From positions 496,001 to 560,000 of the forward strand of contig NZ_CP133217.1 of NCBI RefSeq assembly GCF_030930995.1: 64,000 bases of DNA, read 5' to 3'. Position 1 is the stretch's first letter; every line of letters starts with the position of its first letter. The DNA comes from Thiothrix subterranea (GTDB taxonomy: Bacteria > Pseudomonadota > Gammaproteobacteria > Thiotrichales > Thiotrichaceae). The translations under genes were made by a program, and so were the position numbers. The notes under the pieces are model-generated. The model was not told the origin of the DNA and made no database searches. It saw nothing but the letters and a program-made list of their open reading frames with translations. Positions 15,703 to 32,624 of this stretch are shown here, in pieces.

Positions 15703-15715
15703 AGTTCAGCCCTCG

Positions 15716-16750
15716 TTAAATAGAATCCGGGTTATCCGCTTTCCGCCGCGCCGCTTCACGATCCACCAACCCTTTCATCACCAAATTTTTCAATGATTGA
15801 TCAAGGGTTTGCATTCCGTCATTTTGCCCGGTTTGCATCGCGGAACGCATTTGCGCAATCTTATTTTCGCGGATTAAATTGCGTACCGCTCGCGTGCCAA
15901 TCAGAATTTCGTGTGCAGCCACACGCCCGCCGCCTTTTTTCTTCAGCAGGGTCTGTGAAATCACCGCCTGCAAGGATTCGGAAAGCATGGAACGCACCAT
16001 CTCTTTTTCGGCAGCGGGGAACACATCCACAATACGGTCAATGGTTTTGGGTGCGGATGTCGTATGCAATGTACCAAACACCAAATGCCCGGTTTCTGCC
16101 GCCGTCAATGCCAAGCGAATCGTTTCCAAGTCACGCATTTCCCCGACCAGAATGGTATCCGGGTCTTCACGTAACGCGGAACGTAACGCGGCTTCAAAAC
16201 CCTTGGTATCGCGGTGCACTTCACGTTGGTTGACCAAGCTTTTTTTGCTTTCGTGCACGAATTCGATCGGGTCTTCGATGGTTAGAATATGCCCGTAATC
16301 GGTATCATTTTTGTAATCGACCATTGCCGCAAGCGTGGTGGATTTGCCCGAACCGGTCGGCCCTGTTACCAACACCAAGCCGCGTGGGTTTTCCGAAATT
16401 TTCCGAAAAATACCGGGCGCACCCAACTGATCGAGTGTTAATACTTTGCTAGGGATAGTACGGAACACCGCACCCGCACCACGGTTTTGGTTAAAGGCAT
16501 TCACACGAAACCGCGCCACACCAGGGATTTCAAACGAGAAATCGCATTCCCAATGCTCTTCGTAGTTTTTACGTTGGTGATCATTCATGATGTCGTACAC
16601 CAGCGCGTGTACCTGTTTATGGTCGAGTACCGGCAAGTTGATCTTGCGCATTTCGCCATCGACACGGATCATGGGGGGCATCCCGCCCGACAAGTGTAAG
16701 TCGGAGGCATTGTTTTTGACGCTAAACGCCAGCAGTTGGGTAATGTCCAT
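15716..16750 (-). CDS. pilT: Type IV pilus retraction ATPase PilT
   Basis: 344-residue PilT, which depolymerises type IV pili for twitching motility. N-terminal NNASDLHLSGGMPP, Walker A GPTGSGKST (about 131-139), Asp box ILTIEDPIEFVHES, Walker B DTILVGEMRD, His box LVFGTLHTTS, all standard. It is the first gene of the pilT-pilU-pilU2 operon and is divergent from yggS, the usual pilT neighbour, with about 60 nt between the two starts. Confidence 0.95.
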   Translation of the reverse strand: MDITQLLAFSVKNNASDLHLSGGMPPMIRVDGEMRKINLPVLDHKQVHALVYDIMNDHQRKNYEEHWECDFSFEIPGVARFRVNAFNQNRGAGAVFRTIPSKVLTLDQLGAPGIFRKISENPRGLVLVTGPTGSGKSTTLAAMVDYKNDTDYGHILTIEDPIEFVHESKKSLVNQREVHRDTKGFEAALRSALREDPDTILVGEMRDLETIRLALTAAETGHLVFGTLHTTSAPKTIDRIVDVFPAAEKEMVRSMLSESLQAVISQTLLKKKGGGRVAAHEILIGTRAVRNLIRENKIAQMRSAMQTGQNDGMQTLDQSLKNLVMKGLVDREAARRKADNPDSI

Positions 16751-18257: not shown

Positions 18258-18271
18258 TTGATCTAGGTCAT
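18258..18271 (+). promoter_or_regulatory. Possible FNR-like site upstream of rnfB
   Basis: TTGAT-CTAG-GTCAT, which matches the left half of the FNR consensus exactly and the right half in three of five positions. It is 63-76 nt upstream of the rnfB GTG. Weak, listed because an anaerobic regulator would suit a ferredoxin-based operon. Confidence 0.25.
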
Positions 18272-18333: not shown

Positions 18334-19227
18334 GTGATTGACGCCAGCATTCTCTCCGCAGACACCGTAGTTGCCCTAGGTTACATGCTGGCCTTGGGAG
18401 TTTCTCTCGCCGTTATCTTGGCAATTGCCAACCGTTTCCTGTTTGTGTACGAAGATCCGCGCATCGACGAAGTGGATTCTGCCCTGCCCCATGCCAATTG
18501 TGGTGCATGTGGTGAAGCCGGTTGCCGCATTTTCGCCGAAAAGCTGATTGCGGGCGAAGTCCAGCCGGGTCAATGCACCGTTAACGCGCCTGCCAACAAC
18601 CTTGCGATTGCCAACTTCCTCGGCGTGGATCTGGGTAATCAGGAAAAGCGCGTAGCTCGATTGGCTTGCGCGGGTGGCAATCACGTTGCCTACAACCGCG
18701 CCAAATACGCCGGATTGCATTCCTGCCGGGGCGCAGCAATGGTCGGCGGCGGCGGTAAAACCTGTACGTGGGGCTGCCTCGGCATGGCGGATTGCGCCGA
18801 TGTGTGCGAATTCGGCGCGATTTCAATGGACAAAAACGGCTTGCCCGTCGTCGATGCCGACAAATGCACCGCCTGCGGCGATTGCGTCGATGTCTGCCCG
18901 AAAAAGCTGTTTGAACTGCACCCCGTCAGCCACCAGTTGTGGGTGGCTTGCAAAAATCTCCACCACGGCGCAGAGGCTGAAGCCGAATGCGAAGTGGCTT
19001 GCAATGCCTGTGAGCGTTGTGTGAACGATTCCCCAGAGGGATTAATAACGATCAGGGACAACCTGGCAACCATTGATTACAGCAAGAATTCCCTGGCTTC
19101 CCGCGTCAGCATCCAGCGTTGCCCCACCGGGGCGATCGTGTGGCTGAACCGCAAAGGGGAGACCGAAAAAGGGTCGAAAGCCAAACCTGTCATTAGAAAA
19201 CAGGCACTCCCAGTTAGTCACGCATAA
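18334..19227 (+). CDS. rnfB: Electron transport complex subunit RnfB
   Basis: Ferredoxin-facing iron-sulfur subunit of the Rnf complex, which exchanges electrons between ferredoxin and NAD(H) and moves Na+ or H+. About 297 residues from the GTG at 18334, chosen because AAGGA lies 8 nt before it and the protein then opens with the usual single membrane helix (LGYMLALGVSLAVILAIA). Cysteine motifs follow: CGACGEAGC for the first cluster, CTWGC...DCADVC, CTACGDCVDVC and CNACERC: a long, multi-cluster RnfB. It heads the operon, which is unusual in that a PFOR-like gene lies between rnfB and rnfC, 34 nt downstream. Confidence 0.92.
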   Translation: MIDASILSADTVVALGYMLALGVSLAVILAIANRFLFVYEDPRIDEVDSALPHANCGACGEAGCRIFAEKLIAGEVQPGQCTVNAPANNLAIANFLGVDLGNQEKRVARLACAGGNHVAYNRAKYAGLHSCRGAAMVGGGGKTCTWGCLGMADCADVCEFGAISMDKNGLPVVDADKCTACGDCVDVCPKKLFELHPVSHQLWVACKNLHHGAEAEAECEVACNACERCVNDSPEGLITIRDNLATIDYSKNSLASRVSIQRCPTGAIVWLNRKGETEKGSKAKPVIRKQALPVSHA

Positions 19228-19261
19228 TCCTTTGAATCTCACTCGTAGAGGCAGTCAAACC

Positions 19262-22200
19262 ATGTTCGGAATCAAGAAACCTGTTACCCCTACCGTCAAG
19301 TACCCCGGTACGCGCATGGCAATGGACGGCAACGCCGCTGTCATTATGTGTGAACGCGAGGCATCGGATGCTGCGGGTGCGTACCCGATTACCCCTTCCA
19401 CCCAAATGGGCGAATACTGGGCGGAAGAAGTCGCCAAAGGTCACGTCAATAACGCCGGGCAACCGCTGATTTTCGTTGAACCGGAATCCGAACATGCCGC
19501 CGCCGCCGTGACTGCGGGGATGTCGATGACCGGCTTGCGTGCCACCAACTTCTCCTCCGCACAAGGCGTGGCATTCATGCACGAATCCTTGTATGCCGCT
19601 GTCGGTAAACGTCTGCCTTACGTGCTGAACATCGGTTGCCGCGCCATTACCAAGGCCAGCCTCAACGTACATTGCGGTCACGATGACTACCACTGCATTG
19701 ACGACACCGGTTTCTTCCAAATTTTCGCTAAGAATGCCCAGGAAGCGGCTGACCTTAACCTGATCGGACGCAAGATTGCCGAAATGTCCCTGACCCCTGC
19801 GGCAGTGGCGCAAGACGGCTTCCTCACCACCCATTTGATCGAACCGCTGCAAGTGCCGGAACGCGAACTGATTGCGGAATTCCTCGGCAACCCCGCCGAC
19901 ATGATCGACTGCCCCACCCCGGCGCAGGAAATGATTTACGGCCCGAAACGCCGCCGCGTCCCTGAAGTGTGGAGCGTGGATAACCCAATGGTGGCCGGTA
20001 CGGTGCAAAACCAAGACGCTTACATGCAAGCGACTGCCGCACAACGCCCGTATTTCTTCGACCACATCCGCGACCTTTCCGAAAAAGCGATGGCGGAATA
20101 CGCCAGCCTCACCGGGCGTTACTACGGGCGCATTGCCGAATACCGTTGCGATGACGCTGACTACGTAATCCTCGGTCAAGGCAGCATGATCGTGCAGGCG
20201 GAAGCGGTTGCCGATTACCTGCGTGATACCCGCAAGCTCAAAGTGGGCGTGATTAACCTCACCATGTACCGCCCCTTCCCCGGCGATCTGATCAGCAAGG
20301 CACTCAAAGGCAAAAAAGGCTGCGTGGTGCTGGAACGTACCGACCAGCCGCTGGCAGAAGATTTACCCGTGATGCGTGAAGTCCGCGCCTCCCTCACCAA
20401 GAGCATGGAAAACGGTTTCGCTACCCGTGGCGAACTGCCTTACCCGCTGTATGCCAGCTACAAAAGCGGCGAAGCCCCAGCCCTGTACTCCGGCTGCTAC
20501 GGCTTGGGTAGCCGCGACTTGCAACCGGAAGGCATTATCGGTGCTATCGAAAACATGCTGCCCAACGGCAAGAACCAGCGTTTCTTCTATCTGGGCATCG
20601 ACTTTTACCGCAATGCCGCCTCCCCGCGTCAGGAAGTCTATTTCAACGACCTACTGAGCCGTTACCCGCAAATCAAGGATTTGTCGGTGTATGGCAGCGA
20701 AAATCCCAACCTGATGCCGAAAGGTTCCATCACCGTGCGGATGCACTCGGTCGGCGGCTGGGGCGCGATCACCACGGGTAAAAACCTAGCGATGACGCTG
20801 TACGACCTGCTCGGTTTCGACATCAAAGCCAACCCCAAATACGGCTCGGAAAAGAAAGGTCAGCCGACCACCTACTACCTGTCCGCCGCGCCTGAACCCA
20901 TCCGTTTATCGTGCGAATACCATTTCGTCGATGTGGTGCTCTCCCCAGACCCGAATGTATTCCTGCACTCCAACCCATTGCACGGGCTGGACAAGGATGG
21001 CGTATTCATTATCCAGAGCAGCCTCGGTTCGTCCGCCGAAGTGTGGGCGCAAATTCCGCGTCAGGCACAGAAATACATCGTTGACCACGGCATCCGCATT
21101 TACTACATCGACGGTTTCAAGATTGCGCGGGAAGAAGCTTCCAACGCTGAACTGCAATTCCGTATGCAGGGTAACGCCTTCCAGGGCGCGTTCTTCGCCG
21201 CTTCCCCGTTGATGGCACGCAACAATATGACCCGCGATACCCTGTTCGACGCGATTGAAAAACAATTACGCGACAAGTTCGGCAGCAAAGGCGCACGGGT
21301 CGTTGAAGACAACCTCAAAGTGGTACGTCGTGGTTTCGATGAAATCATTGAAATCACCGAAAAAACCGTCGGTTTGACCCCCGAAGCGGTGCGCAAGCAA
21401 GCCAGTTCCTTGCCGATCATGCTGAAACAGTTGCCGGAAGGCGACGGACGCTTGTCCGACATCCACCGTTTCTGGGAACAGACCGGCAGCTTCTACCTCG
21501 AAGGCAAAGGCAGCGGCAACCTCGCCGACCCGTACATGGCAACCGGCTTGATGCCCGTCGCCACCGGCTTCTACCGCGACATGACCCAGATCCGTTTTGA
21601 ATACCCTGAGTTCAAGCCGGAAAATTGTACCGCTTGCGGCAACTGCTACAGCGTGTGCCCGGACAGCGCGATTCCCGGTCTGGTCAATTCCATTAGCGAC
21701 GTATTCAACTCCGCCATCATGACGATTGAGCGCGGCGGCAACCCGACCCGTTTCCTGCGTCGTGAAGTGCGTACCGTTGAGAAAAAGCTGCGCGGCCTGA
21801 TCGACCAAAACGGTGAAGCCGCCAACGTCAACCAGCTCATCGACCACGCAGTACTGGAAACACTGGCAGAATCCCCGCTGGAAGGCACAGAAAAGCAAAG
21901 TTTGGAACGCGAATTCAGCCGCCTGCTCGCCACCATCGGCGACTTCCGTTTCGCCATTACCAAGCCTTACTACAGCACCCGCGAGAAAAAGCAGGCAGGC
22001 AGCGGCGGTTTGTTCTCCATCACCATCAACCCTTACACCTGTAAAGGCTGTATGGAATGCATCAAGGTCTGTGACGACCAAGCCTTGGTTGCCGTGCCGC
22101 AAACCGAATCAGCGGTCGAGCGGATGCGCAAGGAATGGAAATTCTGGCTGGAATTGCCCACCACCGCCCCCGAATTCAGCCGCATTGACGATCTGGATGA

Positions 22201-24187
22201 AAAGGTTGGTGCACTTGAAACCCTGCTGCTCGACAAGCACAACTACCATTCCATGATGTCCGGCGACGGCGCGTGTCTGGGTTGCGGCGAAAAGACCAGT
22301 ATCCACCTGTTCACCGCCACAGTGACTGCGTTGCTGCAACCGCGTGTCAAATCGCATCTGGAAAAGATCGACAACCTGATCAACCAGCTCGAGACCAAGG
22401 TGCGCATGACCTTGGCGAACAATATCAACCTTGGCGATACCGCTGCCTTCCGTGCTGCTATCGACGGCAACAAGGAACACGACCTGACACTGGGCATCCT
22501 CTCGCATTCACTGGAAGCCGACGGCCCGACCCAGCCACTCAACCAGCAATGGCTGAAAGACATTACCAAGCTGCTGGACGCGCTGCGCAACCTGAAATGG
22601 CGTTACACCGAAGGCCAGACCAAGCAAGGCCGTGCCGAAATGGGCATTATCAACGCCACAGGCTGTACCTCGGTGTGGGCATCCACCTTCCCGTTCAACC
22701 CGTATCCGTTCCCGTGGGCAAACCATTTGTTCCAGGATGCGCCGTCGATGGCGATGGGTATTTTTGAAGGTCACATGGCGAAAATGGCGGACGGTTTCAA
22801 AGCCATTCGCAAAGCCGAGTTGATCATTGCCGACAAGTACGATCCGGCGGAACACGATTCCATCCTGACCTACTTCAACTGGAAAGCCTTCAGCGATGAA
22901 GAATGGCGTTTGTGCCCGCCAGTTGTTGCCGTCGGTGGTGATGGCGCGATGTACGACATCGGCTTCCAGAACCTGTCGCGTGCGCTGATGTCCGGGATGC
23001 CGATCAAGGTGCTGGTACTGGATACGCAGGTGTATTCCAACACTGGCGGGCAGGCGTGTACCTCCGGCTTTATCGGGCAGGTTTCCGACATGGCTCCGTA
23101 TGGCAAGGCGTGGAAAGGCAAGACCGAAATCCGCAAGGAAATGAGCCTGATCGGAATGGCGCATCGCACTTCATTTGTGCTGCAAAGCTCCATTTCCAAT
23201 ATGACCCACATGATTGAAGGTTTCATTGACGGTTTGAACAGCCGCCGTCCAGCCCTGTTCAATATCTACGCGGTGTGCCAACCCGAACACGGTGTGGCGG
23301 ATGACGCAGCCGAACAGCAAAGCAAGCTGGCGGTCGAATCCCGCGCTTACCCCTTGTTCCGCTTCGACCCGGATGCAGGCGAAACCCTCAAAGACTGCGC
23401 CAGCATCGAAGGCAACCCGTCCATAGACACTGACTGGCCGACTTACACGCTGGAATACACCGACGAAAAAGGCAAAACTGCCAGCATGAAAGTGCCGATG
23501 ACCTTTGCCGATTTCGCCCTGACCGAAGGCCGTTTCCGCAAGAGCTTCCGCAAAGCCCCGCCGGAAACCTGGAACGACAATATGGTGCAGTTGCACGACT
23601 TTATCGAACTGGATGAAGACGCACGCGACGGCCTGTTCCCGTACATCTGGGCAGTCGATGGCAAAAACCGCCTGATGCGGGTGTTGGTTGCGCAGGAACT
23701 GGTGGCTTCCACCGAAGAACGCCGTGGTTTCTGGCATCAACTCAAGTCGCTGACCGGGGTTGATCAGGTCGTCGATCTGGATGCGATCAAACTGCAAGCC
23801 AAAGCCGAAGTCGCGCAACAACTCACTGCTACCCTGATGGGCATGGCAGCGGGCAGCGTTCCTGCGGGTTTGCTGGCAAGCGGTGGTAATGGCGCATTGT
23901 CTCCGGCTACTGGCGCACCAGCGGCTAACGCGGGCAGTTTCGAGCCAGTGTGGGTCGATTCCCCGGAATGTACCGCCTGTGACGAATGCATCAATATCAA
24001 CCCGGCTATCTTTGCTTACAACGACCAGAAAAAGGCGATTGTGATTAACCCACAAGGCGGCCCGTTCAAGGACATCGTGAAAGCAGCAGAGAAATGCACG
24101 GCAGGTTGCCTACACCCTGGGACTCCGCACAACCCGAACGAAGCTGGCTTGGACAAGCTGGTGGCGCGGGCGGCGAAATACCAATGA
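19262..24187 (+). CDS. Pyruvate:ferredoxin oxidoreductase-like (NifJ family) fusion protein with extra C-terminal ferredoxin domain
   Basis: Thiamine-diphosphate, iron-sulfur 2-oxoacid:ferredoxin oxidoreductase family. 1,641 residues, against about 1,180 for ordinary NifJ. Order: PFOR domain I with catalytic YPITPST (residues 41-47); domain II; gamma domain with HSVGGWGAITTGK; EKR-like region; clusters CTACGNC (about 789) and CKGCMEC (about 926), about 130 residues apart, farther than usual; TPP domain with GACLGCGEK, VGGDGAMYDIGF (about 1224) and YSNTGGQ; then an extra region, an Ala/Gly linker and a terminal one-cluster ferredoxin (CTACDEC about 1569, last Cys near 1615). ATG 19262 follows GAGG. 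The domain I substrate pocket is far from canonical pyruvate enzymes, so the 2-oxoacid is uncertain. Embedded between rnfB and rnfC. Confidence 0.85.
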   Translation: MFGIKKPVTPTVKYPGTRMAMDGNAAVIMCEREASDAAGAYPITPSTQMGEYWAEEVAKGHVNNAGQPLIFVEPESEHAAAAVTAGMSMTGLRATNFSSAQGVAFMHESLYAAVGKRLPYVLNIGCRAITKASLNVHCGHDDYHCIDDTGFFQIFAKNAQEAADLNLIGRKIAEMSLTPAAVAQDGFLTTHLIEPLQVPERELIAEFLGNPADMIDCPTPAQEMIYGPKRRRVPEVWSVDNPMVAGTVQNQDAYMQATAAQRPYFFDHIRDLSEKAMAEYASLTGRYYGRIAEYRCDDADYVILGQGSMIVQAEAVADYLRDTRKLKVGVINLTMYRPFPGDLISKALKGKKGCVVLERTDQPLAEDLPVMREVRASLTKSMENGFATRGELPYPLYASYKSGEAPALYSGCYGLGSRDLQPEGIIGAIENMLPNGKNQRFFYLGIDFYRNAASPRQEVYFNDLLSRYPQIKDLSVYGSENPNLMPKGSITVRMHSVGGWGAITTGKNLAMTLYDLLGFDIKANPKYGSEKKGQPTTYYLSAAPEPIRLSCEYHFVDVVLSPDPNVFLHSNPLHGLDKDGVFIIQSSLGSSAEVWAQIPRQAQKYIVDHGIRIYYIDGFKIAREEASNAELQFRMQGNAFQGAFFAASPLMARNNMTRDTLFDAIEKQLRDKFGSKGARVVEDNLKVVRRGFDEIIEITEKTVGLTPEAVRKQASSLPIMLKQLPEGDGRLSDIHRFWEQTGSFYLEGKGSGNLADPYMATGLMPVATGFYRDMTQIRFEYPEFKPENCTACGNCYSVCPDSAIPGLVNSISDVFNSAIMTIERGGNPTRFLRREVRTVEKKLRGLIDQNGEAANVNQLIDHAVLETLAESPLEGTEKQSLEREFSRLLATIGDFRFAITKPYYSTREKKQAGSGGLFSITINPYTCKGCMECIKVCDDQALVAVPQTESAVERMRKEWKFWLELPTTAPEFSRIDDLDEKVGALETLLLDKHNYHSMMSGDGACLGCGEKTSIHLFTATVTALLQPRVKSHLEKIDNLINQLETKVRMTLANNINLGDTAAFRAAIDGNKEHDLTLGILSHSLEADGPTQPLNQQWLKDITKLLDALRNLKWRYTEGQTKQGRAEMGIINATGCTSVWASTFPFNPYPFPWANHLFQDAPSMAMGIFEGHMAKMADGFKAIRKAELIIADKYDPAEHDSILTYFNWKAFSDEEWRLCPPVVAVGGDGAMYDIGFQNLSRALMSGMPIKVLVLDTQVYSNTGGQACTSGFIGQVSDMAPYGKAWKGKTEIRKEMSLIGMAHRTSFVLQSSISNMTHMIEGFIDGLNSRRPALFNIYAVCQPEHGVADDAAEQQSKLAVESRAYPLFRFDPDAGETLKDCASIEGNPSIDTDWPTYTLEYTDEKGKTASMKVPMTFADFALTEGRFRKSFRKAPPETWNDNMVQLHDFIELDEDARDGLFPYIWAVDGKNRLMRVLVAQELVASTEERRGFWHQLKSLTGVDQVVDLDAIKLQAKAEVAQQLTATLMGMAAGSVPAGLLASGGNGALSPATGAPAANAGSFEPVWVDSPECTACDECININPAIFAYNDQKKAIVINPQGGPFKDIVKAAEKCTAGCLHPGTPHNPNEAGLDKLVARAAKYQ

Positions 24188-24205
24188 TGTGATGTCGTGG
24201 TCATG

Positions 24206-24270
24206 TGTAGGGGCAGCCCCCCGTGTCTGCCCTCTTCCAAGAAGGGCAATCACGGGGGATTGCCCCTACA
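24206..24270. repeat. 65-bp dispersed inverted repeat (GGGGCA type)
   Basis: TGTAGGGGCA at 24206-24215 pairs with TGCCCCTACA at 24261-24270, with inner CCCCCGTG/CACGGGGG and GCCC/GGGC pairings. It fills the gap between the PFOR-like gene and rnfC. It shares the outer GTAGGGGC/GCCCCTAC ends with the repeats at 27985, 29903 and 33534 but has a different core. Confidence 0.75.
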
Positions 24271-24301
24271 TCGACCTACCGTAACGTAACAGGTGACAAC
24301 C

Positions 24302-25657
24302 ATGCTTGCTCTGTTTGAAAAATTCCGCAAAGGCCGCTTCTCGCACGGCATTCACCCGCGTTACCACAAGGACGCAACGCGGGGGAAAGCCATCCAGCGG
24401 CTGGCGTTCCCGCCGCGCCTGATTGTGCCGGTGGCACAACACATCGGTGCACCTGCCAAGCCCGTGGTCAACGTGGGGCAGGAAGTGCTGCGCGGGCAAA
24501 TCATTGCCGAGGCGGATGGTTTCATGTCCGTCCCGGTACACGCGCCTGCCACGGGCGTGGTCAGCAGCATTGGGTTGATGCCGAGTGCGGCTGGCCCCAA
24601 AGTGCTGTCGATTGTGATTGAGGTGTACAAAGCCTCTTCCCAGTACGTGCTGTACGGCAATCCGGTCGAGCCGGAAACGCTGGATCACGACGAACTGATC
24701 CAGCGGGTGCAAGCCACCGGCATGGCAGGTCTGGGCGGGGCTGCGTTCCCCTCGCACGTGAAATTGCGTATTCCGCACGGCAAAACCGCGCACACGCTGG
24801 TGGTGAACGGCTGCGAATGCGAACCCTACCTCACCTGCGACCATCGGGTAATGCTGGAACAGCCGCAGGATTTGCTGCAAGGCATCCGTTACGCGCTGCA
24901 CATTACCGGAGCCAAACGCGCCATCGTCGGCATTGAAGACAACAAAGCCGACGCAGCCACCGCGATAAAAGCCGCCTTGAAACCCGACGACCCGATTACG
25001 GTGGAACTGGTAGAAACTAAATACCCACAGGGCGCGGAAAAGATGCTGCTGAAATCGCTACTGGGTGTGGAAGTCCCCGCTGGCGGCTTGCCCATCGACA
25101 TCGGCATTGTGGTCAACAATGTCGGCACGCTGGCGCAATTGGGTAAATTATTACCCAAGGGCGAAGGGCTGATTGAGCGCGTCGTCACCGTCACGGGTAC
25201 GAATGTCGCCAAAGCAGGCAATTACCTGATGCCGATTGGCACACCCGTGCGCTTCATCCTTGAGCAACTGGGCATTACTGCCGACCACGAAAAAGTGATC
25301 CTCGGTGGACCGATGATGGGGATGTCGCTGCCGTCGCTGGATGTGCCGATCACCAAAGGCACGTCCGGTTTGCTGGTATTTCAGGAACGCACGTTTCTGG
25401 AAGGCGAAAACGATACCGCAGTGTTTCCCTGCATCAAGTGTTCACGCTGTGTGGATGCCTGCCCGATGCACCTCAACCCGGCGCAAATGGGCTGGTTGGC
25501 GGGCAAACGCCACTACGCCGAGATGGAAAGCGATTTCCACCTCAACAGTTGCTTTGAATGCGGCTGTTGCAGCTTTGTGTGCCCATCGAACATTCCGCTG
25601 GTGCAATATTTCCGCATTGCCAAAGCCGTTAACCGTGAACAAAAGGGGAAAGCATGA
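24302..25657 (+). CDS. rnfC: Electron transport complex subunit RnfC
   Basis: NADH- and FMN-binding peripheral subunit of Rnf with two [4Fe-4S] clusters. About 451 residues, near the short end for RnfC since it lacks the long Ala/Lys-rich tail of the enterobacterial protein. N-terminal GIHPRYHKDAT, NADH/FMN region with GMAGLGGAAFPSHVK and VVNGCECEPYLTCD, cluster motifs CIKCSRCVDACP and CFECGCCSFVCP. ATG 24302 is preceded by AGGTG at 24291. The end overlaps rnfD by 4 nt. Confidence 0.95.
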   Translation: MLALFEKFRKGRFSHGIHPRYHKDATRGKAIQRLAFPPRLIVPVAQHIGAPAKPVVNVGQEVLRGQIIAEADGFMSVPVHAPATGVVSSIGLMPSAAGPKVLSIVIEVYKASSQYVLYGNPVEPETLDHDELIQRVQATGMAGLGGAAFPSHVKLRIPHGKTAHTLVVNGCECEPYLTCDHRVMLEQPQDLLQGIRYALHITGAKRAIVGIEDNKADAATAIKAALKPDDPITVELVETKYPQGAEKMLLKSLLGVEVPAGGLPIDIGIVVNNVGTLAQLGKLLPKGEGLIERVVTVTGTNVAKAGNYLMPIGTPVRFILEQLGITADHEKVILGGPMMGMSLPSLDVPITKGTSGLLVFQERTFLEGENDTAVFPCIKCSRCVDACPMHLNPAQMGWLAGKRHYAEMESDFHLNSCFECGCCSFVCPSNIPLVQYFRIAKAVNREQKGKA

Positions 25658-26697
25658 GCAAGAAACACATTGTTCTGCACACCGCGCCGCACGTCAAAAA
25701 GCCGCAGGATGTGCCAACCATCATGCGCCATGTGGTGTACGCGCTGCTGCCGATTGTGGCCTTCGCGGTATACCAGTTCGGCATTAGCGTACTGGCACTG
25801 GTGATTGTCACCACGCTGGCTTGCCTTGGCACGGAACGCTTTTTCAACTGGATGGGCAACAAGCCCAGCAGCTTGAGCGACTGGTCGTCCACCATCAGCG
25901 GTATTTTGCTGGCGTTGACCTTACCACCCGGTTTCCCGTTGTGGATGGCGGCGGTGGCGGGGATTGCCGGGATTGCGATTGGCAAGGCAGTGTTTGGCGG
26001 GATTGGTTACAACGTGTTCAATCCGGCATTAGTGGGGCGGGCGTTTGTGCAAGCCGCGTTTCCGGTGGCGATTACCACTTGGACTCCAGCGTTTTTCACC
26101 GGGCGTTTTACCGAGTTTGTACCTTCCAGCCTGACTGCGCCGTTCATGATGCCGCCGGAAACCGCTGAGTGGGTGAAACAGGTGGCGGTGGATGGTTTTA
26201 GCGGGGCTACGCCGCTGAGTTTGCACAAGTTCCAGCACATTGCTACCAGCCCGATGGATTTGTTTACGGGTACGGTAGCGGGTTCGGCGGGGGAAACGTC
26301 CGCGCTGCTGATTCTGGTGTGCGGGCTGTATCTGGTGATCCGCAAGATGATGAACTGGCAGATTCCAGCGTGGATTTTCGTCGGTGTGGTTGCCACCTCC
26401 GGCGTGTTGTACCTGATTAACCCGGAGAAATTTGCTGATCCAATGTTCATGCTGTTTTCCGGCGGGCTGATGTTGGGGGCGATGTTCATGGCGTCCGACA
26501 TGGTGGGTTCGCCGCTCACCCCGAAAGGGGTAATGATTTACGGCTTGCTGATCGGTTTCCTCACCGTACTCATTCGCCAGTTCGGGAGTTTGTCGGAAGG
26601 CATTATGTACGCGATTTTGCTGGGCAATGCGGCGACACCGCTGATTGATACCTGGACACAACCACGGCTGTTTGGCGCACGGAGGAAATCCGCATGA
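25654..26697 (+). CDS. rnfD: Electron transport complex subunit RnfD
   Basis: Integral membrane subunit, 347 residues with roughly ten hydrophobic helices. Covalent-FMN motif FSGATPL (about residue 185), the Thr being the flavin attachment site in the RnfD/NqrB family. GGIGYNVFNPALVGRAF and FMASDMVGSPLTPKG are also family-specific. ATGA overlaps join it to rnfC upstream and rnfG downstream. RnfD with RnfG forms the flavin pathway that drives ion translocation. Confidence 0.95.
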   Translation: MSKKHIVLHTAPHVKKPQDVPTIMRHVVYALLPIVAFAVYQFGISVLALVIVTTLACLGTERFFNWMGNKPSSLSDWSSTISGILLALTLPPGFPLWMAAVAGIAGIAIGKAVFGGIGYNVFNPALVGRAFVQAAFPVAITTWTPAFFTGRFTEFVPSSLTAPFMMPPETAEWVKQVAVDGFSGATPLSLHKFQHIATSPMDLFTGTVAGSAGETSALLILVCGLYLVIRKMMNWQIPAWIFVGVVATSGVLYLINPEKFADPMFMLFSGGLMLGAMFMASDMVGSPLTPKGVMIYGLLIGFLTVLIRQFGSLSEGIMYAILLGNAATPLIDTWTQPRLFGARRKSA

Positions 26698-27353
26698 GTG
26701 GCAAAAATAGCACGGCGATGATCGCCACGCTGGGGTTTGTAACCGCGCTGTCGGGTTTCCTGATTGTGACGGTGTTCCAAGCCACCAAACCAGCGATTGA
26801 GGAAAACAAACGCCTGAGCATCCAGAAAACGGTGCTGGAAGTGATCAAAGGTGCAACCGCTGATAAGCATTTCATCATCAATGAAAAAGGTGAATTGCTG
26901 GAAGCTGTCCCCGGCATGAAAGGCACGAATGTGTACGCGGGTTACGATGCCCAAGGCAAACTGGTGGGCGTGGCGGCTGAAGGCAGTGCGCAGGGCTATT
27001 CCGGCTCGGTGGATACGATTTACGCCTACACCCCGGCTTGCGAGTGCATTACCGGCATCAAGGTCATTAAACAAACCGAAACGCCGGGGCTGGGTGACAA
27101 GGTGATTACTGACAAGCACTTCGTTGCCAATTTCGACAAGCTGGAAGCCAAGGTGAATGCGGCGGGCGATGCGCTGGCAAACGCGATTGTCGCGGTCAAG
27201 CACGGCGCGAAACAGAATCCGTGGGAAATCGACGCGATTAGCGGCGCGACCATTTCCTCCAAAGCCATTGCCAAGGGTTTGAACAACAGTGCGCAAGAGG
27301 TGCTGCCCAAGGTCGTACCGTTGTTGCCGCAAATCGAAGGAGCGAAACCATGA
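26694..27353 (+). CDS. rnfG: Electron transport complex subunit RnfG
   Basis: Membrane-anchored periplasmic flavoprotein, 219 residues: one N-terminal helix (MIATLGFVTALSGFLIVTVF), then an FMN-binding domain with ISGATISSKAI near the C terminus, where the Thr of SGAT carries covalent FMN. KQTETPGLGDKV is the typical RnfG/NqrC segment. Overlaps rnfD and rnfE by 4 nt each. Its FMN would be attached by an ApbE-type transferase; no apbE is seen in this window. Confidence 0.94.
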   Translation: MSGKNSTAMIATLGFVTALSGFLIVTVFQATKPAIEENKRLSIQKTVLEVIKGATADKHFIINEKGELLEAVPGMKGTNVYAGYDAQGKLVGVAAEGSAQGYSGSVDTIYAYTPACECITGIKVIKQTETPGLGDKVITDKHFVANFDKLEAKVNAAGDALANAIVAVKHGAKQNPWEIDAISGATISSKAIAKGLNNSAQEVLPKVVPLLPQIEGAKP

Positions 27354-27973
27354 GCCTGATCAAACAGGATGACCGGATTACGGTCGATACCTTCCTCGAA
27401 GGCATTTGGCGCGAAAACCCGGTATTCGTGATGATGCTGGGAATGTGTCCGGTGCTGGCTGTCACCAACTCGGCGATCAATGCGCTGGCAATGGGCTTGG
27501 CAACCGCGTTCGTGCTGGTGGCGTCGAGTTTGCTGGTGTCGTTGTTCCGCAACCTGATCCCATCGGAAGTGCGCATTGCCACGTACATTGTGATCATTTC
27601 GACCTTTGTGACCATTGTGGATTACACCATGCAGGCGTTGAGTCAGGAAGTTTACAACGCGCTGGGGGCGTTCATCCAGTTGATTGTGGTGAACTGCATT
27701 ATTCTGGGGCGGGCGGAAGCCTGTGCGTCACGCAACAAACCGCTGAAGTCGATGGTGAACGCGGCGGGCATGGGGTTGGGTTTCACGCTGGCTTTGCTGT
27801 GCTTGGGCGTAGTGCGCGAAATCTTGGGCAGTGGTTCGTTGTTTGGCTTGCCGCTGTTTAGTGAGCAGTTCCAGCCGTGGGTGGTAATGGTATTGCCACC
27901 GGGCGGATTCTTGGTGCTGGGCGGCTGGTTGCTGTTCTTTGAATGGCTGAAAACACGCAAACAATATGCGTAA
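27350..27973 (+). CDS. rnfE: Electron transport complex subunit RnfE
   Basis: 207-residue integral membrane subunit with about six helices, homologous to NqrD. NPVFVMMLGMCPVLAVTNSAINAL carries the conserved Cys that helps hold the membrane iron site shared with RnfA, and NCIILGRAEACAS the second. Overlaps rnfG by 4 nt. A 59-bp palindromic repeat lies between it and rnfA. Confidence 0.94.
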   Translation: MSLIKQDDRITVDTFLEGIWRENPVFVMMLGMCPVLAVTNSAINALAMGLATAFVLVASSLLVSLFRNLIPSEVRIATYIVIISTFVTIVDYTMQALSQEVYNALGAFIQLIVVNCIILGRAEACASRNKPLKSMVNAAGMGLGFTLALLCLGVVREILGSGSLFGLPLFSEQFQPWVVMVLPPGGFLVLGGWLLFFEWLKTRKQYA

Positions 27974-27984
27974 AAAACGTGAAG

Positions 27985-28043
27985 AGGGCGACCGCCGGTC
28001 GCCCCTACCAAGATTACCCGTAGGGGCGACCGGCGGTCGCCCT
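27985..28043. repeat. 59-bp perfect dispersed inverted repeat (GGGCGACCGCCGG type)
   Basis: Two 24-bp arms (27985-28008 and 28020-28043) are exact reverse complements around an 11-nt centre. Each arm is itself palindromic around ACCGCCGGT. It interrupts the otherwise tightly packed rnf operon between rnfE and rnfA and would form a strong hairpin in the mRNA, possibly protecting or limiting transcript segments. Related copies: 29903-29966 and 33534-33600. Confidence 0.85.
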
Positions 28044-28065
28044 GTTCTGGCAGGAGACGCTATTG

Positions 28066-28650
28066 ATGGCAACTGATTCTCTGACGTTTATTTTTTTCAA
28101 CGCTTTTTTGGCGAACAACTTTGTGCTGGCGATGTTTTTGGGGCTTTGCCCGTTTCTGGGTGTGTCCGGCAAGCTGAATACGGCAGTGCCGATGGGCTTG
28201 GCAACGTCGTTCGTGATGCTGGTGAGTTCGGTGTGTGCGTATTTCCTCAATGAAGTGCTGGTGGCGTTCAATATCGAATATTTGCGCCTGATCAGTTACA
28301 TCGTGGTGATTGCATCCGCCGTGCAATTGGTGGAAATGACCCTGAAAAAACTCAGCCCGGCACTGTTTCGCTCGCTGGGGATTTATTTGCCGCTGATTAC
28401 TACCAACTGCGCGATTCTGGGGCTGGCGTTGTTCCAGACCTTTAAGGAATACAACTTCATGCAATCGCTGGCGTATGCGTTGGGCGCAGGCGCGGGTTTC
28501 ATCCTCGCGATTGTGTTGATGGCGGGGCTGCGTGAGCGGCTGGATTTGGCGAAGTTGCCGAGCGTGACCCAAGGGGCGGCATTGAGCCTGATTCTGGGTG
28601 GCTTGTTGTCGCTGGCGTTTATGGGATTTGCAGGACTGGGAGCGGAATGA
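28066..28650 (+). CDS. rnfA: Electron transport complex subunit RnfA
   Basis: 194-residue membrane protein, six helices, homologous to NqrE and RnfE. FLGLCPFLGVSGKLNTAV and TTNCAILGLALFQ hold the two conserved Cys of the RnfA half of the inner-membrane iron centre. Start at ATG 28066 with AGGAGA at 28051. It directly precedes and overlaps the NqrM-like gene. Confidence 0.95.
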   Translation: MATDSLTFIFFNAFLANNFVLAMFLGLCPFLGVSGKLNTAVPMGLATSFVMLVSSVCAYFLNEVLVAFNIEYLRLISYIVVIASAVQLVEMTLKKLSPALFRSLGIYLPLITTNCAILGLALFQTFKEYNFMQSLAYALGAGAGFILAIVLMAGLRERLDLAKLPSVTQGAALSLILGGLLSLAFMGFAGLGAE

Positions 28651-28847
28651 TGCGGGATTATCTGATTGCAATGCTGGTGATTCCGGTGTTGTTCGGTGCG
28701 TGGATTGTGGTGCAACGCATCGTGAAAGAATTTGCCTTGCGCCACCCGGAATTTGGCCCGCCACGCGAGGAGGGCGGCGGCTGTGGGTCGTCGTGCGGGT
28801 GTAGTGGCAAAAAGGCGTGCAAGAACCGCGACAAACACGAACATTGA
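28650..28847 (+). CDS. NqrM-like (DUF539) cysteine-rich small membrane protein
   Basis: 65 residues: an N-terminal membrane helix (LIAMLVIPVLFGAWIVVQRI) followed by a Cys-rich tail, CGSSCGCSGKKAC. This is the plan of NqrM, the factor needed to mature Na+-NQR, probably by supplying iron to the NqrD/NqrE site. RnfA and RnfE are homologues of NqrE and NqrD, and this gene overlaps rnfA, so the likely role is assembly of the Rnf iron centre (inference). ATG 28650 has GGGAG 7 nt upstream; ATG 28647 is also possible. Confidence 0.8.
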   Translation: MRDYLIAMLVIPVLFGAWIVVQRIVKEFALRHPEFGPPREEGGGCGSSCGCSGKKACKNRDKHEH

Positions 28848-28861
28848 AGAGAGAGGATTTT

Positions 28862-29716
28862 ATGACTGATACCAACGAACAGACTTACAGCAATACCTGC
28901 GACGCGATCGTTCGCTCCAGCAAGCGCATTACCGATACCAAAACGGATGAGGTGCGTGAGATGGTGTTGACCATCCATGACCCTGCGTTCCGGGCGATGC
29001 CGGGGCAGAATATTGGCGTGCTGGTGGAAGGCAAACATCCGTTTGGCAACCGCTTCCATCACCGCTATTACAGCGTGTTAGCGGCACAGCCGCATGGCGA
29101 AGGCTCCGACATCGAGATTCTGGTGCGGCGTTGTTCCTATATCGACGAGGTGTCGGGCGAGGAATACCCCGGCATTGCTTCGCACTACCTGTGTGATGCC
29201 GCACCGGGCAAGCAGATTACCCTGACCGGGCCTTACAAGGCAGCGTTCAAAGTGCCTGCGGATAACACCAGCAATTTGTTGATGATTGGGACAGGGACTG
29301 GGATTGCGCCTTTCCGTACTTTGATCAAGTCAGTATACGCGCAGGAACAGGGCTGGCGTGGGCAAGTGCGCTTGTTCTACGGCGCGAAAAGCGGGCTGGA
29401 TGCGCTGTATATGAACGACCAGAACAATGACATTACCAACTATTACGATCAGGCGACCTTTGAGGCGTATCAGGCGATTGACCCGCAGGCGTGGCGCGAT
29501 GCCTCCGGCAATCTGGGCAAGAGTCTGGCGGAAAACGGCGCGAAAACCTGGGTGATGATGCAGATGCCGAACACTTACGTTTACCTTGCCGGGCTGAAGA
29601 AACAGGTAGCGGTGCTGGATAAGGTGATGGGCGAACTGGCGGGTTCGGCGGCGAACTGGCAGGCGTTGAAGAACCGGCTGGTGGCGGATGGGCGTTGGGC
29701 TGAATTAGTCTATTGA
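28862..29716 (+). CDS. Plant-type ferredoxin:NADP+ oxidoreductase-like flavoprotein
   Basis: 284-residue FAD enzyme predicted to exchange electrons between NADP(H) and ferredoxin. FAD motif RYYSVLAA, pyrophosphate and adenine region GIASHYLCDAAPG, NADP motif GTGTGIAPFRTL, FYGAKSG, and a C terminus RWAELVY with a terminal aromatic residue as in plant/cyanobacterial FNR. Start ATG 28862 behind GAGAGGA, 14 nt after the NqrM-like gene. As the last gene of the rnf operon it suggests NADPH is tied to the same ferredoxin pool. Which pyridine nucleotide it prefers is not certain. Confidence 0.85.
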   Translation: MTDTNEQTYSNTCDAIVRSSKRITDTKTDEVREMVLTIHDPAFRAMPGQNIGVLVEGKHPFGNRFHHRYYSVLAAQPHGEGSDIEILVRRCSYIDEVSGEEYPGIASHYLCDAAPGKQITLTGPYKAAFKVPADNTSNLLMIGTGTGIAPFRTLIKSVYAQEQGWRGQVRLFYGAKSGLDALYMNDQNNDITNYYDQATFEAYQAIDPQAWRDASGNLGKSLAENGAKTWVMMQMPNTYVYLAGLKKQVAVLDKVMGELAGSAANWQALKNRLVADGRWAELVY

Positions 29717-29725
29717 TGTGATTGC

Positions 29726-29814
29726 GTAGGGTGGGTGGAGCGTAGCGATACCCACCGGATACCGTATCGTCGTCTCGAAAATGGTGGGTATCGCATTCGC
29801 TCCACCCACCCTAC
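29726..29814. repeat. 89-bp dispersed inverted repeat (GTAGGGTGGGTGGAGCG type)
   Basis: GTAGGGTGGGTGGAGCG at the left pairs with CGCTCCACCCACCCTAC at the right; inner CGATACCCACC pairs with GGTGGGTATCG. The right end overlaps the last codons and stop of the SEFIR gene, so the repeat supplies that gene's terminal residues. It may also act as terminator hairpin for both convergent transcripts. Confidence 0.8.
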
Positions 29815-32624
29815 CGATGAGCCTGCAACTCGGCGAGTTCTGCGTCGCGGCGGTGGTAGCCGGTTTCGGTGATTAGGCGGGCGGCTTCGGCGATATGGTA
29901 TTGAAGAGGGCGACCGCCGGTCGCCCCTACGTCTGCCTGTAGGGGCAACCGGCGGTTGCCCTCTTTTTCCTCCGCCACCAACAACCGCGCCATCTCCAAA
30001 TGATAATCCGTCAAATGCAGCCGCATTCCGCTGCCGTCGGCGATGTCGAAGACTTCCTGCAAGTCCTGCCGGGCGCGGGCGAAGTCGTGGGTGTGGCGGT
30101 GCAGCGTAGCGCGGGCGAGTAGACCGAATGGTAAATACTGCTGTTGTCCTGCTGCACGCAAACCAGCGACAGCCTGATCCAGCCAGTGAAGACCCTCACC
30201 CCCAGCCCCTCTCCCGGAGGTAGAGGGGTGTAAGAGTTGTTGCAGATGGGCGCGTCCGAGGGTGAGTTGATCCAGTGCAATGCTCAGCAATTGCCCATTA
30301 TCTTTTGCGATTTTCAAAGCATATTCCGCCCGCTCCAGCACCTCCGCCGTGCTGCCCTCCGCCAGCAACAGGTCGCAGTATTGGAAACCTTGCACCGAAT
30401 ACAGGCGCGGGTAAGCAGACTGGTGTTCCTGCTGGAGTTGCTCCGCTTCCCGGAACAGGGCAAGGGCGACGGCGGTCTCCCCTGCCTGATGCAGGGCATC
30501 GGCGTGGGTGGTGCGTTTACCCATGCGCTGTACCCAATCCCCGGACTGGTCGGCGTAGCGGCTGCTGCGTGCGCCGATCGTAACCGCTTGCGCCACATCG
30601 CCGAGGGTGAATTGCAGTTCGCTGAGGGAGGACGCAGCACTAGCCGCACTCACCCAGTTTTCTTGATGCACGAACATTTCAACGTTTGCCTGCATCGGCT
30701 CCAGTGCCTCACGCAGCCGCCCCAAGGCGCGTAAGCCGAAGCCTGCCCAGTTCAGCAAAACGGCTTTATCGCCTTCCGTCAAACCCGCTGCGGGGGTGTG
30801 CCACGGGGTCGTGAAGAAATGCGCTACAGTAGCGAGGTCATCGCTGAAAGCACCGAGTTTCTTTTCAAGGAATGACTCACTCTCACGATTGATACGAGGC
30901 CAGTAAACCTCATCCAACGCCTGCTGATGCAACCCCGCCGCACACCCATGCGCCACCGCACTAAACAGCGGCTGCATGTCTGACAGCGTATCGGGCAATT
31001 CCTTCTCCGGTAGGGCTTTGTAGTATTCGTACAGCCGTTCATGCGCCTGCTGCCACGCTTGCGGCTGCTGGGTTTGCAGTTGCCCGCCGAAGTATTCGCG
31101 GATCAGCGGGTGGCAGTCGAGGTCGCCGCCGCTGTCATGCTGCGACAACAGGTGGTGTTCTTCGCGCAAACTGGCGATGGCTTCCAGCCATTCATCTTCA
31201 TCAATGCCTGCGGTCAGGTGCGGAATCTGCGCATCCCACAGCATTTGCAGCACGTCTTGCCCGATGGGGTGATCGAACAGCCCCAACAAGTGCAGCAACG
31301 CCAGTTCCGGCTCGCCCGCAAACCATTCAGCATAAGCCTGCATCACCTTGAAGGCGTGGCGGCTGTCGCGGTTGCCCGTCGCTTTGACTAGTGCCGTGAG
31401 CGTATCGCGCTTGCGCACATCGCCGTGATGCCGCAGCCGCAACACATTCCCCAGCAAACTCAACGCCAACGCATGACCGCCGTATTCACCCACCGCCTTG
31501 CCCAGTTCCGCCGCGCTGCCCGTCACCCCCAGCGATTGCAGCAACTGGATGCCATCCGCCGCCGTCAGGTTTTGCAGATCGTGGCGGATGACGGTGGGCG
31601 CGTCGCGGTCACTGAGTTCATGCAGCGCAATCCGCGTGGTGATAATGCACAAGCCGCACGGATGGCGGGCAAGCTGGCGCAGCAATTGGCGAATGGCTTT
31701 GTCCTTGAGTTCGCCGCGCATCGCCGCGCCGCCGTGTTGCAGCGGCTCCAGACCATCCAGCACCAGCACGTAGCGTTTGCCGCGCAGCAATTCGGCGAGG
31801 TGGTCGCCCTTGTCCTCCTCCGACGCAAACCGCTCGCGGCTCGACCCCAGCTTGGCAAACGCATGGCTGAAAAATGGTGTGGCGGAAGTCTGCTTGTCTT
31901 CGCTTGCGCCTTGCGAATAGAACGACCAGGCAATCAGCACCGGAATGTCGGCGGTGTGGTCGAGCCAGTGGCGCAGCAGTTTGGTTTTGCCTGTGCCGCC
32001 GGGAGCGATGAATTGGATGATGCGGGTGGTGGTGTTTGCCCATGCGTTGGTGAGGCGTTGCAGTTCGGCGGAGCGTCCGAAGAAACCGCCTTTGACGGTG
32101 GGGAGGCGGTCGGAGTGGATGGTGGTTGGCGTGTGTCCATTCGCCGCTGACATAGAACGGATTTCCCCCAACGGCGGCGCAATGTATTCAGCCTGCCCCG
32201 TCAACACACGGTACAACTTGTCGTAATCACTGGGTAGGCAATACGTCGAATAAGGTTTTAGCGTTAGCGGTACATGCTCCAGACTGCCATGAGCTGGAAT
32301 TAGCGGGATGAACTTGGTGTTGCGGTAATAGTGGTCGTACAGCGTTTGTGAAATAACCACGCCTTCAAATGTCACGCCGCGCCCGCCATCGGTTTCCTGC
32401 CCACGGTAACGCCGCAAATAAGTTTCGGTGCAAACCAGCAACACAAAATCAGCCGCTTCGATTTGGTTTTCCATCCAGCGTTGCCAGCCTTCGGGTGGAA
32501 AGCCATTCACATACAGGTCAATCAGACAATCCAGCCCTTCCTTACGCAAACGGTCGGATATGCCGCGCACAAACTCGCGGTGTGCGTCAGAATCATGGCT
32601 GTAACTGATGAAAACCTTGGTCAT
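29811..32624 (-). CDS. SEFIR-domain STAND NTPase with TPR repeats
   Basis: 937 residues, no relative named with certainty. Residues 1-140 form a SEFIR (TIR-like) domain: VFISYSHDSDAHREFV, WMENQIEAADFVLLVCT. About 175-470 is a STAND-type NTPase: GGFFGRSAELQ, Walker A APGGTGKTKLL, Walker B YVLVLDGLEPL, and IITTRIAL as sensor. The rest is helical TPR-like repeats. SEFIR/TIR-STAND proteins are immune sensors, several with NADase effectors, so a phage-defence role is plausible but unproven. Two dispersed palindromic repeats are read through in frame (codons at 30189-30231 and 29903-29966), giving proline/glycine-rich inserts between TPR units. The gene's 3' end lies in a third repeat. No good Shine-Dalgarno before ATG 32624. 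Confidence 0.8.
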   Translation of the reverse strand: MTKVFISYSHDSDAHREFVRGISDRLRKEGLDCLIDLYVNGFPPEGWQRWMENQIEAADFVLLVCTETYLRRYRGQETDGGRGVTFEGVVISQTLYDHYYRNTKFIPLIPAHGSLEHVPLTLKPYSTYCLPSDYDKLYRVLTGQAEYIAPPLGEIRSMSAANGHTPTTIHSDRLPTVKGGFFGRSAELQRLTNAWANTTTRIIQFIAPGGTGKTKLLRHWLDHTADIPVLIAWSFYSQGASEDKQTSATPFFSHAFAKLGSSRERFASEEDKGDHLAELLRGKRYVLVLDGLEPLQHGGAAMRGELKDKAIRQLLRQLARHPCGLCIITTRIALHELSDRDAPTVIRHDLQNLTAADGIQLLQSLGVTGSAAELGKAVGEYGGHALALSLLGNVLRLRHHGDVRKRDTLTALVKATGNRDSRHAFKVMQAYAEWFAGEPELALLHLLGLFDHPIGQDVLQMLWDAQIPHLTAGIDEDEWLEAIASLREEHHLLSQHDSGGDLDCHPLIREYFGGQLQTQQPQAWQQAHERLYEYYKALPEKELPDTLSDMQPLFSAVAHGCAAGLHQQALDEVYWPRINRESESFLEKKLGAFSDDLATVAHFFTTPWHTPAAGLTEGDKAVLLNWAGFGLRALGRLREALEPMQANVEMFVHQENWVSAASAASSLSELQFTLGDVAQAVTIGARSSRYADQSGDWVQRMGKRTTHADALHQAGETAVALALFREAEQLQQEHQSAYPRLYSVQGFQYCDLLLAEGSTAEVLERAEYALKIAKDNGQLLSIALDQLTLGRAHLQQLLHPSTSGRGAGGEGLHWLDQAVAGLRAAGQQQYLPFGLLARATLHRHTHDFARARQDLQEVFDIADGSGMRLHLTDYHLEMARLLVAEEKEGNRRLPLQADVGATGGRPLQYHIAEAARLITETGYHRRDAELAELQAHR
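29903..29966. repeat. Dispersed inverted repeat inside the SEFIR coding sequence
   Basis: Same family as 27985-28043 and 33534-33600: GAAGAGGGCGACCGCC... on the left, ...GGCGGTTGCCCTCTT on the right. It is translated in frame on the minus strand (EGNRRLPLQADVGATGG) near the C terminus and contains no stop. Confidence 0.85.
30189..30231. repeat. Half-copy of CCCTCACCCC-type repeat inside the SEFIR coding sequence
   Basis: AAGACCCTCACCCCCAGCCCCTCTCCCGGAGGTAGAGGGG-like segment closely matching the left arm of the repeat at 50894-50990. It is translated in frame on the minus strand as HPSTSGRGAGGEGL in the TPR region. Confidence 0.75.

Follow-up and report, generated by a model that had tools for sequence, protein, structure and literature searches.

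Why should a gene for a pyruvate:ferredoxin oxidoreductase (PFOR)-like protein lie between rnfB and rnfC? The question is raised by a stretch of 64,000 nucleotides from Thiothrix subterranea (contig NZ_CP133217.1, positions 496,001 to 560,000; the window, hereafter), where the second gene of an Rnf cluster encodes a PFOR-like product of 1,641 residues, denoted PFORL. The comparisons described here suggest, with a probability of roughly 0.55, that this Rnf ion pump has its own 2-oxoacid:ferredoxin oxidoreductase, built in as a peripheral subunit, and that the complex couples pyruvate, NAD(H), and the ion gradient. An earlier note on this DNA had called a PFOR gene in this position unknown from the literature, and indeed no description was found, with most subscription papers, preprints, and supplements out of reach; none is given in the available parts of PMC12174285, PMC6315080, PMC11636981, PMC4914600, PMC4853749, PMC10609205, and PMC6553558.

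Nine genes follow one another on the plus strand within positions 18334 to 29716: rnfB, PFORL, rnfC, rnfD, rnfG, rnfE, rnfA, a gene for a 66-residue protein, and a gene for a ferredoxin:NADP reductase (FNR)-like flavoprotein. Successive genes are spaced by +34, +105, -4, -4, -4, +92, -4, and +14 bases (negative values denote overlaps), bearing out the compact single-strand order read in the earlier note, with gaps of at most 105 bases and overlaps of 4 bases. All six Rnf subunits score above their NCBIfam subfamily cut-offs, RnfB and RnfG narrowly, and scans with Pfam and NCBIfam models detected no free ferredoxin among the nine genes.

The linkage between PFORL and rnf genes extends far beyond this genome. 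Among 369 genomes of the same class as the host, 142 contained some PFORL match with an E value of at most 0.001; length and identity mark many of these matches as ordinary PFOR or KorA. The long form, referred to as type I, was found in 21, namely the genome of the window and 20 others at 56 to 71% identity. The two other genomes of the same family contained no PFORL match. In all 21 type I genomes of the class, an rnf gene adjoins PFORL as far as the contigs extend, in one case (G249) in the order PFORL-rnfCDGEA-fnr-rnfB. A scan of named genomes with an RnfB alignment produced at least 593 matching stretches, 510 of which were confirmed as relatives, and the best 80 were retained. Within these best 80 of the 510, PFORL belongs to the same cluster in 73 of the 74 informative loci, the other six being cut by contig ends (L097, L125, L132, L145, L153, and L156). 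PFORL directly follows rnfB in 61 of the 80 loci (including L157, a member of the second class described below), and the order seen in G249 recurs in 12, all bearing Bacteroidota names in their titles. Because the query was built from PFORL-linked RnfBs, these counts apply to this kind of RnfB rather than to all RnfBs. By record title, titles of metagenome-assembled genomes included, the hosts belong to eight phyla (Pseudomonadota, Acidobacteria, Verrucomicrobia, Spirochaetes, Bacteroidota, Calditrichota, Myxococcota, and Hydrogenedentota), with Thiocapsa, Allochromatium, Marichromatium, Sedimenticola, Ectothiorhodospira, Shewanella atlantica, and Flavivirga among the names. Thus, the possibility raised by the earlier note, that the order might not be conserved outside this genome, can be dismissed, the order being widely conserved in many unrelated bacteria; since it recurs in records of other phyla, the arrangement is more than chance. 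The PFORL-Rnf cluster appears to be a widespread bacterial means of tying carbon chemistry to the ion gradient.

PFORL itself contains the POR_N, POR, PFOR_II, and TPP_enzyme_C domains, all above the Pfam cut-offs, and its best solved relatives are the PFOR chains 6cin, 7plm, and 1b0p, of which we take 6cin to be the Moorella-type enzyme and 1b0p to be the Desulfovibrio enzyme. It shares domain order and active-site motifs with these single-chain PFOR/NifJ proteins (6cin and 1b0p), the sequence match to 6cin covering residues 19 to 808 and 1221 to 1377, but is longer by about 450 residues, with inserts at approximately residues 830 to 900 and 1020 to 1115, a linker, and an additional C-terminal single-cluster ferredoxin domain. 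Against the PFOR equivalog model TIGR02176, PFORL reaches 412 bits, short of the cut-off of 911.35, and for this reason "PFOR-like" is the appropriate term; the NifJ/PFOR-type enzyme of the earlier note is thereby upheld at the level of domains, but the protein belongs to a distinct long subfamily under the NifJ/PFOR cut-off. Positions with roles assigned from the PFOR of Desulfovibrio africanus were inspected in aligned sequences of 78 type I proteins (77 of them distinct), seven second-class proteins, and three ordinary PFOR-like proteins. Type I proteins retain the substrate-site Thr and the Glu in 68 of 68 informative sequences each and the Arg in 72 of 72. All 78 contain both thiamine motifs (GDG and NTGG), the four proximal-cluster Cys, and the eight ferredoxin-domain Cys. 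The C-terminal CxxCxxC...C set, recognized as a single-cluster ferredoxin domain, occurs in 77 of the 78, the remaining protein being truncated. Judged by these positions, type I PFORL carries the residue set of a catalytically competent PFOR, intact in every informative sequence.

A second class of loci, found in 11 genomes (L064, L065, L066, L072 to L075, and L196 to L199), encodes a more distant PFORL, 24 to 32% identical. In all 11, rnfB directly adjoins PFORL and is flanked on its other side by a gene for a protein of 750 to 870 residues that looks like the back half of a type I PFORL. All four examined copies of this half-PFOR protein have the C-terminal Cys set, and the copy in L073 contains a Fer4_13 domain. 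Ten of the 11 second-class PFORLs are informative, that of L197 being cut by a contig end; the proximal-cluster Cys and the substrate Thr are retained in none of the 10, and the eight ferredoxin Cys are retained in all 10, with the caveat that residue calls from alignments at 24 to 32% identity can err. By their residues, these proteins fall outside the catalytically competent PFORs. Two of them (L074 and L075) are shorter, at 1,258 and 1,286 residues. All 10 loci that extend far enough also encode the beta subunit of a separate 2-oxoacid oxidoreductase, whose alpha subunit occupies a single frame in 8 (L064, L072 to L075, L196, L198, and L199), is cut in L065 and L197, and is split over two frames in L066. 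For example, in L073, the alpha subunit beside the altered PFORL scores 485 bits against TIGR03710 (cut-off, 482.75) and the beta subunit 225.6 bits, below the TIGR02177 cut-off of 261.9. In type I, by contrast with such a two-subunit oxidoreductase, the catalytic body is PFORL itself. In the second class, rnfC comes after PFORL in eight of the nine loci with downstream DNA, in four of the eight (L066 and L073 to L075) with succinyl-CoA synthetase genes in between; neither rnfC nor succinyl-CoA synthetase genes were found in the 3.9 kb after PFORL in L199. NuoF-like and TfrA-like genes lie upstream in L073 to L075, L198, and L199. At least four genomes (G350, G218, G167, and G343) contain both classes of PFORL.

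The simplest reading of the second class would be that the PFOR body has stayed in Rnf as an electron-carrying scaffold after catalysis moved to another enzyme; because a PFOR body devoid of the catalytic cluster ligands is kept in place, it suggests a fixed electron-carrying part of Rnf. Taking both classes together, it is conceivable, at slightly less than even odds, that the PFOR-derived protein is a structural, electron-carrying Rnf subunit throughout, which in type I would also be the catalyst, acting on pyruvate, and in the second class would be a wired scaffold between Rnf and a distinct 2-oxoacid synthase, probably one for 2-oxoglutarate. In the available part of PMC11636981, the expression of a dimeric korAB shifts together with that of a possible "PFOR-like" gene, which would fit the second class if these are the same genes. 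Five further genomes (L067 to L071) encode split relatives of PFORL, with a part of approximately 655 to 677 residues, 40 to 43% identical, and a beta part; no rnf match was found in the examined stretches around these.

The genes downstream of the cluster and the metabolic background of the hosts bear on the direction in which such a unit might run. Of 40 loci examined for neighbors, 37 contain rnfA, the other three (L043, L044, and L048) ending before it. Downstream of rnfA and the small-protein gene, the next gene encodes FNR in 18 of the 37 and phosphoenolpyruvate (PEP) synthase in 8; the other 11 loci have neither, and the frames that follow there differ from locus to locus and often lie on the opposite strand. 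FNR and PEP synthase never occur together in the 37 loci (Fisher P = 0.003, uncorrected for kinship), and two of the PEP synthase loci (L178 and L180) are 97.6% identical. A PpsR-like gene accompanies PEP synthase in six of the eight loci, the DNA ending in the other two, and both proteins score above the cut-offs in L041, the copy tested. Of the 21 loci in the best-80 set with at least 700 bases after rnfA, 18 continue with FNR, these loci being mostly from Bacteroidota and partly from the same genomes as the 37-locus survey. Thus, the proposal of the earlier note that a 2-oxoacid enzyme, Rnf, and FNR form one operon survives as regards an operon-like unit, but FNR is not a fixed part of it.

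Within the class, the E1 component of pyruvate dehydrogenase is above the cut-off in 18 of the 21 type I genomes (aceE in 10 and the two-subunit type in 8), the three others (G286, G318, and G033) being 79 to 86% complete, with the match in G033 cut by a contig end; accordingly, PFORL is not the sole route of pyruvate oxidation. Ordinary PFOR is above the cut-off in five of the 21. RuBisCO is present in 18 of the 21, compared with 157 of the 348 other genomes (Fisher P = 0.0004, kinship uncorrected). PFORL is, then, an addition to normal pyruvate oxidation in hosts that, within the class, mostly carry RuBisCO. Together with the PEP synthase neighbor, this background favors synthesis of pyruvate by carboxylation of acetyl-CoA, with NADH and the ion gradient meeting the cost via Rnf. 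The genome of the window (4.41 Mb) carries both RuBisCO and nifH, as well as three further pairs of Rnf-Nqr membrane genes, two of them in sets resembling rnfABCDGE and the third in a set that lacks matches to rnfB and rnfC and that we take for nqr.

In the proposed complex, PFORL would interconvert pyruvate plus CoA and acetyl-CoA plus CO2 on thiamine diphosphate, and two low-potential electrons would travel through its own Fe-S clusters, the extra C-terminal one included, to or from RnfB. Beyond RnfB, transfer to RnfC and NAD(H) would proceed by way of the membrane subunits and be accompanied by ion movement across the membrane; in loci that have FNR, this enzyme would connect the same electrons with NADP(H). 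The unit would probably be run as a pyruvate synthase. As to the separate parts of this scheme, pyruvate is the likely substrate of PFORL, physical contact between PFORL and RnfB is nearly as probable, and the net direction toward pyruvate is somewhat favored.

The proposed unit resembles the Rnf complexes of Acetobacterium woodii and Azotobacter vinelandii (Rnf1) in having all six RnfABCDGE subunits and differs from them in that its genes are arranged as B-PFORL-CDGEA. RnfH, an additional cytoplasmic subunit of A. vinelandii Rnf1, lacks a redox cofactor (PMC12174285, as far as available); a PFOR-derived subunit is not mentioned there, and the word PFOR is absent from the main text. Also related are the reductive tricarboxylic acid (TCA) clusters of tubeworm symbionts and Thioflavicoccus, in which Rnf genes lie beside ferredoxin-dependent carbon-fixation genes, with a dimeric korAB near TCA genes (PMC6315080 and PMC11636981, available parts). 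These clusters combine rnfABCDGE with Hdr-Flx and korABCD, and the available parts of the same two papers, their supplements being unreadable, do not mention a PFOR body between rnfB and rnfC.

Several observations weigh against a built-in pyruvate synthase. L146, titled Nitrospiraceae and 1 of the best 80 loci, contains rnfBCDGEA without PFORL, and G036 (L059 and L200), the lone exception among the 21 type I genomes, has rnfB-PFORL with no rnfC within approximately 18 kb downstream. The wide shortfall of the family against the PFOR equivalog cut-off means that the substrate may be another 2-oxoacid, and several hosts are titled as marine Bacteroidota, for which a pyruvate synthase role is not obvious. 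The stripping of second-class PFORL is partial, the aligned Arg being present in five and the aligned GDG Asp in four of the first seven proteins. A role as a substitute for the glyoxylate shunt was also considered and rejected: isocitrate lyase (E value below 1e-40; tallied by eye) occurs in 93 of the 369 genomes and is not associated with PFORL, being found in 6 of the 21 type I genomes and 87 of the 348 others. Finally, distance matrices of PFORL and the Rnf subunits correlate at 0.61 to 0.85 across 64 loci (0.85 for PFORL and rnfC), but the optional FNR tracks rnfC equally well (0.94; 27 loci), so that the correlations reflect joint inheritance only, not contact, and do not discriminate as proof of a complex.

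The same complex could operate in reverse, with PFORL oxidizing pyruvate at low oxygen, Rnf making NADH and an ion gradient, and FNR making NADPH, as an energy-saving alternative to pyruvate dehydrogenase. PFOR is reversible, and FNR is the neighbor in nearly half of the surveyed loci. Furthermore, Rnf is bidirectional, with reverse use in Azotobacter (PMC12174285, in part), and in the Riftia symbiont a PFOR isoform, not shown to be the same copy as PFORL, rises together with PPDK under O2 limitation (PMC11636981, in part). An FNR/DNR-type box, TTGATCTAGGTCAT, is located upstream of the window operon, at positions 18258 to 18271, 76 bases before the rnfB start. However, the box is not clearly conserved: among 85 upstream stretches (100 before removal of identical ones and those with the Bacteroidota-type order), 8 contain it with at most one mismatch, where first-order random sequence would be expected to give 3.1 and a control motif gave 1; contig ends produced two of the 8 as coordinate artefacts. 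A conserved anaerobic promoter box is, thus, at best weakly indicated, and PEP synthase with PpsR downstream in a subset of the loci points away from oxidation, leaving the oxidative direction a serious candidate with odds clearly below even.

Somewhat less probable still, and on balance unlikely, is a loose metabolic operon in which PFORL and Rnf are separate, electrons pass through diffusible ferredoxin, and the gene order reflects only co-regulation and joint transfer. FNR and PEP synthase are likewise neighbors and need not bind Rnf, the distance correlations are explained by co-inheritance of the whole operon, and G036 fits this account; but the place of PFORL beside rnfB is nearly fixed across phyla, the nine genes include no free ferredoxin, and the second class retains, in the same slot, a PFORL without the catalytic cluster ligands. 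A service to nitrogenase, with PFORL and Rnf both supplying ferredoxin for N2 fixation, is highly improbable and was rejected as a general role, given that nifH is above the cut-off in only 9 of the 21 type I genomes, the window's included, and was not found above it in the other 12, and that in the window genome it lies about 0.9 Mb from the operon, near a different rnfABCDGE set at 1.376 to 1.381 Mb.

Features of the operon and of the repeats within it (positions in the window)
Feature	Coordinates	Strand	Description
rnfB	18334..19227	+	GTG start; 297 aa; PRK07118-like long form; TIGR01944, 69.7 bits (cut-off 68.7); 25-sequence alignment
PFORL	19262..24187	+	1641-aa PFOR-like 2-oxoacid oxidoreductase; inserts and extra C-terminal [4Fe-4S] domain
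Palindromic repeat copy, PFORL-rnfC gap	24206..24270		Inverted repeat, dispersed
rnfC	24293..25657	+	TIGR01945, 509.7 bits (cut-off 245.95)
rnfD	25654..26697	+	TIGR01946, 299.9 bits (cut-off 207.05)
rnfG	26694..27353	+	TIGR01947, 103.7 bits (cut-off 102); SGAT motif
rnfE	27350..27973	+	TIGR01948, 236 bits (cut-off 213.4)
Palindromic repeat copy, rnfE-rnfA gap	27981..28047		Inverted repeat, dispersed
rnfA	28066..28650	+	ATG at 28066, in-frame TTG 3 bases upstream; TIGR01943, 239.9 bits (cut-off 229.3)
66-aa protein	28647..28847	+	Hydrophobic N-terminus, Cys-rich tail; at the NqrM place
FNR-like flavoprotein (ferredoxin:NADP reductase-like)	28862..29716	+	Optional last gene; NAD_binding_1

Among the smaller components, the SGAT of RnfG is presumably a flavinylation-type motif. 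The 66-residue protein, whose place is occupied by a small protein in 27 of the 37 loci, the window included, had been labeled NqrM-like because of its small size, hydrophobic N terminus, Cys-rich tail, and position; these features are confirmed, but the NqrM (DUF539) models of Pfam and NCBIfam do not match it, nor does the Pfam model match three relatives, so that this protein is a putative NqrM analogue by position only. The window FNR, with NAD_binding_1 above the cut-off, is nearest to the PetH and BoxA reductases yet falls below both equivalog cut-offs.

The inverted repeats in the PFORL-rnfC and rnfE-rnfA gaps are copies of a dispersed palindrome with the core GTAGGGGCGACC, which has 70 hits in the genome, compared with 5 for the backward control, so that a reading as operon-specific terminators was rejected. 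A third copy in the window lies at 29902 to 29965. The copies are often paired on opposite strands, and several are near another rnf set and the nif region. No plus-strand sigma-70-like site was found after either repeat within its gap, which is weak evidence because the scan yielded 2 sites in the region versus 6.6 in shuffled sequences. Given that the corresponding gaps in relatives, estimated from match ends, have medians of approximately 27 bases (PFORL-rnfC; 77 loci) and 35 bases (rnfE-rnfA; 80 loci), the repeats may have entered a more compact operon at a later time.

Elsewhere in the window, three consecutive minus-strand genes at 13418 to 16750 (376, 385, and 344 residues) group together by sequence and, we presume, resemble PilT/PilU ATPases. 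Downstream of the operon, on the minus strand at 29811 to 32624, lies a gene for a 937-residue protein that we take to begin with a TIR/SEFIR-like domain, followed by an NTPase and repeats. Proteins of such TIR/SEFIR-NTPase-repeat architecture are often involved in signaling or defense.

An early description of pyruvate synthase came from Chromatium extracts. For respiring bacteria, those of the Calvin-Benson-Bassham type, and photosynthetic bacteria, a fixed PFOR-Rnf unit would offer a direct answer to how the cost of ferredoxin-dependent carboxylations is met, namely by the ion gradient. Such a unit would also give Rnf a new peripheral subunit and provide an evolutionary case of an enzyme turned electron wire. 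If the PFOR-derived protein is indeed an Rnf subunit in both classes, catalyst in type I and wired scaffold in the second, respiring bacteria would use the ion gradient to drive the two carboxylation steps of the reductive TCA cycle that depend on ferredoxin, with type I extending across about eight phyla.

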